Below are positions 48,472-52,869 of a stretch of 64,000 nucleotides of DNA, one piece after another; within the stretch, counting starts at the first letter, position 1; each line of letters begins with the position of its first letter. Where the stretch lies: positions 6,801,501-6,865,500 of the forward strand of contig NZ_CP026121.1 in assembly GCF_003330845.1 (NCBI RefSeq), in the 5' to 3' direction. Source of the stretch: Streptomyces sp. Go-475. Lineage in GTDB: Bacteria > Actinomycetota > Actinomycetes > Streptomycetales > Streptomycetaceae. A program made the translations under genes and the position numbers. The notes under the pieces are model-generated. The model made no database searches and was not told where the DNA came from. It saw only the letters and a program-made list of their open reading frames with translations.

Positions 48472-49272
48472 GTGCGCAACATAGTGCACCGCCACCTGGG
48501 CAAGGTGGTGGCCGGTACGGCCATCGCGGTGGCCGGGACCGCCGTGATGGTCGGGATCACCCTGCCGGGCACGGCGGGGGCGGACGACACGGGGACCGGG
48601 GCGGCGCGGTCCGTCCGGCAGCAGGACGCGCCTGGCCGGGCCGTGGCCCCGGGGGTCGTCGAGCGGGCTCCGGCCGAATCGGAGAAGGGCGAGGGCCGTG
48701 ATCCGCTCACCGACGACGAGCTGGAGCGGGCCGCGAAGATCGCCCTCAGCCGGCAGCTCTTCCAGGCCGGCGAGAGCGTCGACGGGGACCGCGGCCCGCA
48801 GCGCCTCGGCGTCGACCTCGCCGAACCGGAGGCCGACGAGGTCGGCGACCCGGACGCGCCCCGGCGCGCCGATGTGACGTTCTACGACTACCGGGACGAC
48901 ACCCTCGTCACCCGGACCGTCGACCTCGGCACCGGCAAGGTGGTGCGGACCGGCACCCAGCGCGGTGTCCAGCCGCCCCTCAGCCGTGCCGAGAAGGCCG
49001 AGGCGGCCGCCCTGCTGATCGCCGACCCGCTGGGCACGGATCTGAAGGCCGACTACCGGGACGCCACCGGCGAGGAGCTCACCTCCCCGGACCAGTTGCG
49101 GCTCAGCGGCGCCGTCTACCGGGCCGCGCCGGGCGCCCAGCCCGCCGTGCTCGACCGCTGCGGCGAGCACCGCTGCGTGCGGCTGTTCCCGAAGATCAAG
49201 AACGGGCCGTGGGTCGACGCCAGGTCGCTGGTGATCGACCTGAGCGCCCGCACGGTCGCCCGCCTCGGCTGA
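48472..49272 (+). CDS. Exported protein resembling the N2-N3 domains of copper amine oxidase
   Basis: 266 residues from GTG 48472 (AGGGGG five bases upstream). Residues 10-37 form a signal or membrane segment ending TAGADD. After a polar linker, DPLTDDELERAAKIA (about 77-91) resembles the HPLDPL(T/S)..EI..A opening of the amine oxidase N2 domain. DYRDDTLVTRTVDLGTGKVV followed by GVQPPLSRAE (about 139-174) resembles the N3 domain, where GVQPP is a hallmark. No catalytic residues are here. The next gene, 61 bases on, encodes an amine oxidase catalytic domain without N2/N3. The two together total about 710 residues, the usual length of a one-chain enzyme. Annotation as a signal-sequence protein of unknown function would be the alternative. 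Confidence 0.78.
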   Translation: MRNIVHRHLGKVVAGTAIAVAGTAVMVGITLPGTAGADDTGTGAARSVRQQDAPGRAVAPGVVERAPAESEKGEGRDPLTDDELERAAKIALSRQLFQAGESVDGDRGPQRLGVDLAEPEADEVGDPDAPRRADVTFYDYRDDTLVTRTVDLGTGKVVRTGTQRGVQPPLSRAEKAEAAALLIADPLGTDLKADYRDATGEELTSPDQLRLSGAVYRAAPGAQPAVLDRCGEHRCVRLFPKIKNGPWVDARSLVIDLSARTVARLG

Positions 49273-49333
49273 CCGGCCCCCTGCGCTCACCCGTCCACCT
49301 CGCTCGCTCCTCCTGTCAGGGAGTCACCTCGCC

Positions 49334-50668
49334 ATGCGCGTGAACAGCACCAGCAAGACCCGCACCCGGGCGGCCGTGGCCCTGACCGTGGCCGCGCTCG
49401 CCGCCGGCGCCACGGCCGGCGCCGGACCGGCCACCGCCGGACCGGCCACCGCCCGGCCGCAGGCCGCCCCCGCGGCGGCCGCGGCCTACTGCGGGGCCGC
49501 CCACCGCATCGAACAGAAGCTCTCCACCGGCACCACCTGGCGGATGTGCTGGCGCTACGACAGCAAGGCCGGCCTCGTCCTGGAGGACATCTCCTACCAG
49601 CCCAAGGGCGAACCCAGGCCGATCAAGATCCTCAACAGCGCCCGGCTCGGCCAGATCCACGTCCCCTACGACGACGGCACCATCGAGTACGACGACCTCA
49701 CCGGCTTCGACTTCGCCCAGGGCCTGATGAACCTGGCCCCCGGCGAGTGCCCCGGCGGCACCATCAAGACGGTCAAGGTCCCCGACTCCGTCAACGGGAC
49801 CCCGACGATCAAGGGCCTGTGCACCACCACCCGCTCCCGCGGCCACGCCTACCGCATGCAGGGCGACACCGCGAACCAGGTCTACCAGGCCGCGGGCAAG
49901 GACCTCCTCGTCTACACCGTGAACCAGGTCGGCTGGTACGAGTACATGACCGAGTGGCGCTTCCAGGACGACGGCGCGATCACCATGAACGTCGGCGCCA
50001 CCGGCAGCCTGTCCTGGGACGACTACGACGCCGGCGACGGCCGCGGCTGGCCGATCGGCAAGGGCGCGACGGCCAAGGCCACCAGCCACAGCCACAACGC
50101 CTTCTGGCGGCTGGACTTCGCACTGGACGGCTCCACGAAGAACACCGTCGAGCAGTACGACTCCACCGTCACCGCGCCCACCCGGGGGCAGCGGGCCCCC
50201 ACCACGAAGACCACCCGCACCAGGATCACCAGGGAACTCGCCGGGGACAGCAGGAACTACCGCTGGTGGCGCGTGGTCAGCGCGGCCGGCAAGAACAAGG
50301 ACGGGCACGCCCGCTCCTACGAGATCGTCCCCGGACCGACCACCAAGTACCCGGGCCGCGGCTACACCAAGCACGACCTGTACGTCACGCAGTACGACAA
50401 GTGCGAGCTGTTCGCCAGCCACAACCCCGGCGACTGCGGGCGCGGAGCCGGCACCTCCGTCGACAAGTGGGTGAACGGACAGGCCCTCAAGCACCCCGTG
50501 GTCTGGATGAACATCGGCTTCCACCACATAGCCAGGGACGAGGACCAGCAGCCCATGCCCGTGCACTGGCAGGGATTCTCCATCGCCCCGCGCGACGTCA
50601 CCGCTATGAATCCGCTCACTCCGGCCGAGCTCGGCTGGCAGAACGGCCACTGGGAGCCGCGCCGTTGA
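49334..50668 (+). CDS. Copper amine oxidase-like catalytic domain, exported
   Basis: 444 residues with its own signal peptide (about 1-45). Amine oxidase landmarks in order: VPYDDG with FDFAQGLMN (Asp126 at the place of the catalytic base), WYEY at 201-204 where Tyr202 would become topaquinone, HSH at 252-254 (two copper ligands), and HHIARDEDQQPMP at 397-409 (His398 the third ligand), then GFSIAP and AMNP. The Asn normally before the cofactor tyrosine (NY(D/E)Y) is Trp here. The N2 and N3 domains are missing but appear in the gene just upstream. Predicted to oxidise primary amines outside the cell, if the Trp is tolerated. Followed after 102 bases by the HEPN gene. Confidence 0.85.
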   Translation: MRVNSTSKTRTRAAVALTVAALAAGATAGAGPATAGPATARPQAAPAAAAAYCGAAHRIEQKLSTGTTWRMCWRYDSKAGLVLEDISYQPKGEPRPIKILNSARLGQIHVPYDDGTIEYDDLTGFDFAQGLMNLAPGECPGGTIKTVKVPDSVNGTPTIKGLCTTTRSRGHAYRMQGDTANQVYQAAGKDLLVYTVNQVGWYEYMTEWRFQDDGAITMNVGATGSLSWDDYDAGDGRGWPIGKGATAKATSHSHNAFWRLDFALDGSTKNTVEQYDSTVTAPTRGQRAPTTKTTRTRITRELAGDSRNYRWWRVVSAAGKNKDGHARSYEIVPGPTTKYPGRGYTKHDLYVTQYDKCELFASHNPGDCGRGAGTSVDKWVNGQALKHPVVWMNIGFHHIARDEDQQPMPVHWQGFSIAPRDVTAMNPLTPAELGWQNGHWEPRR

Positions 50669-50770: not shown

Positions 50771-52012
50771 GTGGGCTCGGGAGGGCTGGAGCTGCCCCCT
50801 GGTGACGAGGGTCACGAGGGGAACTCCACAGACGTCCCGACCGGTGCCGTGTCCCTGGCACGGCCGATGGACGCGTCGGGCTCGATCGGTCCGGAACTGG
50901 ACTGGGGCGCCGACGCCTGGCGCGAGGTGCGCACCCGCGCGCAGCGGGCCGGCCGGGCCTACATCTGGCTGAACCTCGTCGAGCAGCGGCTGCGCGCGGT
51001 CGTGGCGGCCGTACTGCGCCCCGTCTACGAACCCGTCCACGGCGACGACTGGGTGGTGGCCGCCGCCGGACCCGCCGGGCAGGAGTGGGTGCAGCGCGCG
51101 GTCGCGGTGCGCGAGGTCAGCCGCCGCAAGGGCTATCTGCTCGACCCGGCCGACGACAACGTCCTGTCGTTCCTCACGCTGCCGCAGCTGCGCGAGCTGA
51201 TGGTGCAGCACTGGCCCTGCTTCGAGCCCTACTTCGACGACCGCCGAGACGTCGAACTCGCCCTGGACGAGCTGGAGGTCACCCGGAACGTGGTCTCCCG
51301 CAACCGGGCCCTGTCCGAGGCCGTGCTGAATCAGGCCGAGCGGGCCTCCGCCCGGCTGCTGGAGATGCTCGGCGCGGGCGGTGACGTGCCGTCCGCGCGG
51401 CGGCTGCCGGTCGACGCGGTCGAGGACCTGGTGGGCGACCGGTACGCCGACGTGGTCGCCGTCCACCCGGACCGGGTGCGGCTGATGCGGCAGTTCCCGG
51501 CCGAGGACATCTTCGGCGGCGCGCGCCGCCTCGACGCCATCGGCATCGGCCTCAACCTGCTCGTGCAGAACTTCTCCGGCCGCCGCCTGGTGCGGCTGGC
51601 CGAGTCGGGCTGCCGGGTGCGGCTGCTGTTCCTCAACCCGGCCTCCAGCGCGGTCAAGCGGCGCGAGCGCGAACTCGGCATCAAACGCGGCGAGCTGAGC
51701 CGTGCCGTCGAGATGAACATCCTGCACATGCGCCGGGTGCGGGCCCGGCTGCGCGACCCGGGCGCCTTCGAGATCCAGGTCTTCGACGAGACCCCCCGCT
51801 TCACGGCCTACCTGGTCGACGGCGACGGGGCGGACGGCATCGCGGTCGTGCAGAACTACCTGCGCCGGACGCGCGGGATGGAGGCGCCGGTGTTCGTCCT
51901 GCGCAACGGCGGCAAGGTGGTCAAGTCGGGCGAGGTGGACGAAAGTGGACTCTTTCCCACCTATCGCGAGGAGTTCGAGGTGATGTGGGCGGATTCGCGG
52001 CCGGTGTCGTGA
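50771..52012 (+). CDS. SAV2148-type HEPN-domain protein
   Basis: 413 residues, a protein I recognise as highly conserved in streptomycetes and called SAV2148 family. The first half is helical (WREVRTRAQRAGRAYIWLNLVEQRLRAVVAAVLRPVYEP), consistent with a HEPN-like fold; the second half (about 220-400) has VRLLFLNPASSAVKRRERELGIK and FEIQVFDETPRFTAYLVDGD, reminiscent of a PLD-like or effector domain of toxin-type regulators. GTG 50771 is chosen, with GAAGG nine bases upstream, giving VGSGGLELPPGDEG; the frame is open to TTG 50729. No partner gene of toxin-antitoxin size is adjacent. Function unknown; RNA binding or cleavage would be inference. Confidence 0.75.
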   Translation: MGSGGLELPPGDEGHEGNSTDVPTGAVSLARPMDASGSIGPELDWGADAWREVRTRAQRAGRAYIWLNLVEQRLRAVVAAVLRPVYEPVHGDDWVVAAAGPAGQEWVQRAVAVREVSRRKGYLLDPADDNVLSFLTLPQLRELMVQHWPCFEPYFDDRRDVELALDELEVTRNVVSRNRALSEAVLNQAERASARLLEMLGAGGDVPSARRLPVDAVEDLVGDRYADVVAVHPDRVRLMRQFPAEDIFGGARRLDAIGIGLNLLVQNFSGRRLVRLAESGCRVRLLFLNPASSAVKRRERELGIKRGELSRAVEMNILHMRRVRARLRDPGAFEIQVFDETPRFTAYLVDGDGADGIAVVQNYLRRTRGMEAPVFVLRNGGKVVKSGEVDESGLFPTYREEFEVMWADSRPVS

Positions 52013-52143
52013 ACTGTGCCCGGACAGGCGGTGCTTCCAGGGCCGTCGTCGCGGTCAAGCGGAACGCGATCCTCTGATTGTCAGTGGTGCGTGGGAGGGT
52101 GGAGACCACTGGGGGAACGCACCACAAGAAGGGGGGCCCGCCC

Positions 52144-52869
52144 ATGGGCTGGCACCGGGAGCTGCTGATCGGCTTCGACCTGGAGACGACGGGCACCGAT
52201 CCGCGCGAGGCGCGCATCGTCACGGGCGCCGTGATCGAGGTCAGGGACGGAAAGCCGATAGGGCGCCGGGAGTGGCTGGCCGACCCGGGGGTGCCGATCC
52301 CCGAGGACGCGGTGGCGGTGCACGGCATCAGCAACGAGCGGGCGGCGGCCGAGGGCAGGCCCGCCGACCAGGTGGCGGACGCCCTCGCCGACGTCCTCAC
52401 CTCCTACTGGAAGACGGGCGTACCGGTCGTCGCCTACAACGCGGCCTTCGACCTGACCCTCCTCTCCGCCGAGCTGCGCAGGTACGACCTGCTGTCCCTG
52501 CGCGACCGCCTGGGCGGCATGGACCCCGCCCCGGTCATCGACCCGTACACGATCGACCGCTGGGTCGACCGCTACCGGCGCGGCAAACGCAACCTCGAAG
52601 CGGTCTGCGCCGAGTACGGCGTGGTCCTCGAAACCGCCCACGACGCCATGGCCGACGCCCTCGCGGCGGCCCGGCTGGCCTCCGCGATAGCCGACCGCCA
52701 CCCCAAGATCGCCTCCCTCGGCCCGGCGGCCCTGCATCGCCGCCAGATCGAGTGGTACGCGCAGTGGGCGGCGGACTTCCAGAGCTTCCTGCGCGGCAAG
52801 GGCGACGCGACGGCCCTGGTCGACGGAGCCTGGCCGCTGCGGGAGTGGGCGGACGAGCCGGTCCGCTAG
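52144..52869 (+). CDS. DEDDh 3'-5' exonuclease (DNA polymerase III epsilon-like)
   Basis: 241 residues. ExoI motif FDLETTGTD, ExoII motif NAAFDLTLL, ExoIII motif HDAMADALA: the complete DEDDh set. Also VHGISNE, typical of DnaQ-like stand-alone nucleases. No polymerase or GIY-YIG domain is attached. Start ATG 52144 with GAAGGGGGG upstream. Likely a cytoplasmic proofreading or RNA/DNA end-trimming nuclease. It is convergent with the phosphotransferase gene 18 bases away. Confidence 0.9.
   Translation: MGWHRELLIGFDLETTGTDPREARIVTGAVIEVRDGKPIGRREWLADPGVPIPEDAVAVHGISNERAAAEGRPADQVADALADVLTSYWKTGVPVVAYNAAFDLTLLSAELRRYDLLSLRDRLGGMDPAPVIDPYTIDRWVDRYRRGKRNLEAVCAEYGVVLETAHDAMADALAAARLASAIADRHPKIASLGPAALHRRQIEWYAQWAADFQSFLRGKGDATALVDGAWPLREWADEPVR

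Follow-up and report, generated by a model that had tools for sequence, protein, structure and literature searches.

Copper amine oxidases (CAOs) structurally characterized by 2012 were all homodimers of one 70–80 kDa chain, according to a review of that year, which also calls the asparagine preceding the cofactor tyrosine strictly conserved (PMC3382800). The AGAO mutant N381A forms topaquinone (TPQ) 180-fold more slowly and has a kcat of 1/160 (PMC9491219), and the 2012 review gives only 5–10% TPQ formation for HPAO N404A (PMC3382800). Here we describe two adjacent genes, A and B, in a 64,000-nucleotide stretch of the Streptomyces sp. Go-475 genome (the window; contig NZ_CP026121.1, positions 6,801,501–6,865,500), whose products are complementary domains of one CAO-type enzyme, are inherited together and both carry leaders, with a tryptophan in place of that asparagine. 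Among the papers listed by searches of one open-access library, judged from listings and abstracts, none dealt with split CAOs or with a Trp preceding the TPQ tyrosine.

The first-pass annotation of this DNA had read the locus as a CAO split into two exported proteins, the upstream one N2- and N3-like and the downstream one catalytic, and this reading is supported, the complex itself being a matter of prediction from sequence. A and B are indeed separate forward-strand open reading frames (ORFs), 61 bases apart, with a summed length of 710 residues. B matches the Pfam model Cu_amine_oxid (5.1e-43, model positions 8–405 of 407) and corresponds to positions 233–627 of the NCBIfam primary-amine oxidase model PRK11504, of which A residues 76–186 cover positions 16–122 (3.9e-4), both matches lying far under that model's curated cut-off. 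The profile search thus placed B as proposed but gave no Pfam N2 or N3 match for A, and among 24 diverse A relatives none reached a curated cut-off for these models (AGAO-like_N2 at 0.082 in one, Cu_amine_oxidN2 at 0.22 in another), because A sequences are too diverged for them. The N2/N3 assignment nevertheless stands by other means: profile–profile comparison with hhalign aligns A to CAO columns 14–196 of 667, and the structure of A, predicted like that of B as a single chain, matches the fold of CAO domains D2–D3. On these two grounds A is firmly identified as the predicted N2/N3 (D2 plus D3) chain. Cys230 and Cys235 are invariant in the 24 A proteins, as are Cys53 and Cys72 in split B. In the structure comparison (AGAO rows shown), the first aligned residue of B, at about 50, lands on AGAO residue 9–10, the start of D2. 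A second PF01179 match was not found by Pfam search in the 8.57 Mb, single-contig genome to which the window belongs.

The residues on which CAO catalysis depends are retained in B, as judged from an alignment of 136–137 Streptomyces split B proteins with 24 single-chain CAOs and, separately, from 20 loci outside Streptomyces (Table 1). Met408, near the third copper histidine, is likewise kept in all 20 non-Streptomyces B proteins, as in amine oxidases. The cofactor motif departs from the T-x-x-N-Y-D/E consensus, and B of the window reads Q-V-G-W-Y-E. The replacement of Asn by Trp, already pointed out in the first-pass annotation, is no peculiarity of this strain: the residue before the cofactor tyrosine is Trp in 134 of 136 Streptomyces split B proteins (Tyr in the other two, Asn in none) and in 20/20 non-Streptomyces loci, and Asn in 24/24 single-chain CAOs. 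Thr is absent from its consensus position in both sets, which hold Gln (99), Lys (29), Glu (3), Ser (2) and Ala, Leu or Arg (one each) in the 136 Streptomyces sequences, and Lys (7), Gln (6), Arg (5) and Glu (2) in the 20 others; the acidic position after the tyrosine is Thr, Tyr or His in some split B. An argument for a dead enzyme that took residue 126 as the base (Gly in 80, Asp in 24 and Asn in 13 of 121 close relatives) was dropped, because the loop before the base is five residues shorter in split B and the 24-CAO alignment, across that gap, brings Asp121, which is invariant, to the position of the base. Since the asparagine matters in AGAO and HPAO and the Trp is natural and near-invariant, analogy implies that the cofactor environment of split B is either compensated or different.

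Table 1 Positions of the A and B genes and of their predicted domains and residues in the window
Feature	Position	Strand	Basis and remarks
Gene A	48472..49272	+	GTG start, 266 residues; ORF list, hhalign, fold match to CAO D2–D3
Export signal or membrane anchor of A, ~residues 1–36	48472..48579	+	By eye
D2-like domain of A, ~residues 74–168	48691..48975	+	Profile and fold matches; D2/D3 border is our reading of the profile alignment
D3-like domain of A, ~residues 169–266	48976..49269	+	Profile and fold matches; contains Cys230 and Cys235
A–B spacer	49273..49333	+	GGAG ribosome-site-like sequence 5' of B start
Gene B	49334..50668	+	Catalytic D4 domain of CAO, predicted exported, 444 residues
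Signal peptide of B, ~residues 1–36	49334..49441	+	By eye
Tyr112, channel/TPQ-holding Tyr column	49667..49669	+	136/136 split B, 24/24 CAOs, 20/20 non-Streptomyces
Asp121, catalytic-base Asp column	49694..49696	+	136/136 split B, 24/24 CAOs, 20/20 non-Streptomyces
Trp201, at the Asn position preceding the cofactor Tyr	49934..49936	+	Alignment
Tyr202, precursor Tyr of predicted TPQ-type cofactor	49937..49939	+	136/136 split B, 20/20 non-Streptomyces
His252-x-His254, copper ligands by alignment	50087..50095	+	137/137 split B, 20/20 non-Streptomyces
His398, third copper ligand by alignment	50525..50527	+	137/137 split B, 20/20 non-Streptomyces

Within Streptomyces the two genes are inherited together. 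Strong B matches (E <= 1.5e-92) occur in 62 of 150 genomes and strong A matches (E <= 2.6e-49) in 61, leaving out ten genomes with weak B only (single-chain CAOs or remnants) and four with weak A only (remnants); all 61 strong-A genomes also have B, and the sole strong-B genome without A (G102; handles in G, L and f stand for genomes, loci and families) holds a broken copy. Among the best 80 of 378 loci, which are those named here, A lies 5' of B on the same strand in every case and all three relative frames occur, the A frame being interrupted in one (L181). Simple counting over eight pairs each, uncorrected for GC bias, gave ratios of non-synonymous to synonymous substitution rates of 0.33–0.52 for A and 0.22–0.38 for B. 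A weak B match resembling a single-chain CAO is present in 17 of the 150 genomes, in 10 of them alongside the pair, so split pair and ordinary CAO are not mutually exclusive.

A Streptomyces-only distribution, suggested by single-sequence searches, was refuted by profile searches across the class. The A profile matched in 34 of 345 class genomes, namely 15 Streptomyces and 19 others belonging to ten genera and five families (f7, f8, f91, f93 and f101), and the B profile added three genera among 121 genomes of the Streptomyces family; the pair is therefore present in six actinomycete families within the sample. In the set of 20 loci introduced above, which comprises 18 of the 19 class loci and two from the Streptomyces family, A always precedes B on the same strand, with a possible B start codon at or near the A stop (about 160 bases further on in L222), and the two genes are also adjacent in the nineteenth class locus (G822). 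Searching the 345 genomes with the Pfam catalytic domain separated two score groups, single-chain matches at 470–561 bits (with a fragment at a contig edge scoring 183) and split-type matches at 92–151 bits in 36 genomes. An A match lies at most 555 bases away on the same contig in 34 of these 36, and closer inspection revealed A in G891, so that 35 of 36 have an adjacent A. Split-type catalytic homologues do not occur routinely without A, the one lone, apparently intact B of the class sample being that of G852. In a tree built from D4 sequences of 32 split B and 24 single-chain enzymes, a branch supported at 100/100 sets the split B apart, so that a single origin is possible. Programmed frameshifting, to which the same frame relation in 16 of the 20 non-Streptomyces loci might have pointed, was rejected on two grounds: near the A stop B has a possible start of its own and a leader, and in Streptomyces all three frame relations exist.

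Separate leaders on the two proteins, as originally proposed, are recognizable by eye, the means by which export signals were assigned throughout except for A of the 20 other loci, where a simple hydropathy window was used. The A leader carries the motif H-R-H-L-G in the window and R-R-H-L-G in 109 of 241 relatives. In all 20 non-Streptomyces loci A has a hydrophobic stretch before its domain (best 15-residue mean hydropathy 1.99–3.01) and B a hydrophobic leader. Long tails occur on some B proteins outside Streptomyces: L226–L229 show, by eye, LPxTG-like ends and linkers rich in Pro and Thr, and L224 has Ig-like repeats (Big_3_5, 4e-26). Such tails would allow attachment of the enzyme to the cell wall; a scan for the Pfam anchor model gave a marginal match in L228 (0.015) and none in the other five proteins scanned.

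Taken together, we consider it fairly likely that A and B form an extracellular, non-covalent amine oxidase, with A completing the substrate channel and Trp taking the place of Asn in cofactor formation. An ancestral CAO gene would have been divided at the linker between D3 and D4 in the stem lineage of an actinomycete group, giving A as the D2–D3 half and B as the D4 half, each exported by its own signal. Outside the cell the two would assemble without a covalent link, likely as A2B2 with a B–B dimer core and A on the flanks; D2–D3 sit on D4 in known CAOs, from which we infer the assembly, and its stoichiometry, TPQ, activity and substrate are inferences as well. His252, His254 and His398 of B would hold copper, Tyr202 would become a TPQ-type quinone and Asp121 would act as the base, while A may line the amine entry channel on its D3 side, since residues 155 and 156 of HPAO, which line that channel according to the 2012 review (PMC3382800), fall in the part matched by A. 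Primary amines would be converted to aldehyde, ammonia and H2O2 at the cell surface, with Trp201 fulfilling, in a different way, the steric and hydrogen-bonding role that Asn usually has. The system is homologous to the TPQ copper amine oxidases and probably works as they do; it is no ordinary member, because it lacks two of their defining features, the T-x-x-N-Y-D/E motif and the single chain.

Several observations weigh against this two-chain oxidase. By eye, the leader of the B protein of G852 (locus L236) is lipoprotein-like, and this B has no neighbouring A, none being found in the 9-kb stretch around it or by the genome-wide A-profile search; B may thus be able to work alone. This gene (L236:4050-5513, reverse strand) has Trp before Tyr and is the only apparently intact exception in the class sample. 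G104 holds, besides an intact pair, a second, degenerate-looking B (L094) lacking a clear leader and any A within its 12 kb stretch, with an A-like fragment (L095) about 112 kb off. The single-chain models are of middling confidence (mean predicted local distance difference test scores of 74 and 72), the A leader often has no clear cleavage site, so that A may stay membrane-anchored, and the impairment of AGAO N381A means that Trp201 could entail poor TPQ or none.

The lone B of G852 and the faster evolution of A would also suit a role of A as an assembly factor or inhibitor, for instance a chaperone keeping D4 soluble during export, with B a D4-only dimer. We find this decidedly unlikely, as A retains the full D2 plus D3 length up to the linker, as a structural part would, and D3-region residues serve in the channel of known CAOs (PMC3382800). 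A different cofactor in a retained two-chain assembly, with Trp201 reacting with or holding Tyr202 to give a cross-linked Trp–Tyr quinone or a Tyr radical stacked on Trp and chemistry other than amine oxidation, would account for a consensus broken at two or three places (Asn, Thr and sometimes the acidic residue); it too seems unlikely, given that split B keeps the base Asp, the channel Tyr, Met408 and the copper His as in amine oxidases, a set of residues favouring ordinary Schiff-base chemistry, and that Tyr replaces Trp in two members. The same loss of the TPQ-relevant Asn, together with the Pro/Thr-rich, Ig-like or LPxTG-like tails of some B, could be read as marking a catalytically dead, copper-binding descendant with a structural or adhesive surface role alongside A, a reading we hold to be highly doubtful because the aligned sequences show no change in the copper His, precursor Tyr, base Asp, channel Tyr or Met408, and such constancy is unusual for a dead enzyme. 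That a frameshift or sequencing error broke one gene deserves practically no credence and is already refuted: a canonical CAO is read in two frames in the complete genome G222 (L192), but all three possible frame relations between A and B occur, B begins with a start and a leader of its own, and the pair is found in about 100 genomes (80 named Streptomyces loci and 22 outside Streptomyces). L192 and L194 (G062), considered as further split CAOs, were set aside as canonical CAOs with broken frames that keep the usual Asn. The two overlapping frames at L192:2022-4480 may reflect a frameshift, an error or another split.

The genomic setting of the pair is constant in Streptomyces, with treY-like and glgX genes upstream on the opposite strand and SAV2148-like HEPN and exonuclease genes downstream. 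The glgX and HEPN genes each flank the pair in 78/80 loci, and all seven genes stand in order in 63/80, the others often being cut by contig or stretch ends. Four diverged copies examined have the pair in other gene settings, and neither these nor the 80 loci gave a functional clue from gene neighbourhood. In the window, positions 50783-52869 hold the SAV2148-like HEPN plus DUF5919 gene followed by the RNase T-type exonuclease gene, the latter too flanking the pair in 78/80 loci; the two may form an RNA-acting module. In one diverged copy, where A and B overlap, a PF00144 beta-lactamase-family gene lies directly 3' of B (L098:7259-8671), and L097 has an ORF at the matching place. Genomes without an intact pair can show scars of it at the conserved glgX locus, where the A start and B end remain with the middle gone (L099 and L100), or there is only a B end (L101), a broken B (L102) or only an A start (L111).

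A natural lineage in six sampled actinomycete families thus does without the single chain and without the Asn. It offers a direct test of the role of that residue, a textbook assumption for this enzyme class, allows the catalytic domain to be studied with and without the channel domains, and assigns a function to a family mostly called 'Tat pathway signal sequence domain protein' in databases. We think it rather unlikely, albeit conceivable, that these are class-wide two-chain surface oxidases in which a Trp–Tyr pair, instead of Asn–Tyr, builds the cofactor, either TPQ formed without Asn or a Trp-modified quinone, and in which a detachable D2–D3 chain lets the substrate channel vary independently of the core.

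Compared with the single-chain enzymes AGAO (Arthrobacter globiformis) and ECAO (E. coli), which combine PF01179 with N2 and N3, the split type has the same D2, D3 and D4 folds and shares the three copper His, the precursor Tyr, the catalytic Asp, the channel Tyr, the Met near the third His, and Cys139 and Cys163. It differs in having two genes and two export signals, a shorter loop before the base, a cofactor motif in which Trp replaces Asn and Thr gives way mostly to Gln or Lys, and the extra invariant cysteines of B (Cys53, Cys72) and A (Cys230, Cys235). Identity between split B and actinobacterial single-chain D4 domains is about 23–32%. Many A relatives carry the NCBI name quoted above; such proteins are A, and the name is silent on their D2–D3 identity, the RR pair being present in only those 109 of 241. 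An A relative is also listed for S. venezuelae. The closest counterpart of the cofactor site is AGAO N381A (PDB 7wir, 7wis), an engineered loss of the same Asn with 160- to 180-fold impairment (PMC9491219), whereas split B has a natural, class-wide Trp at that position.
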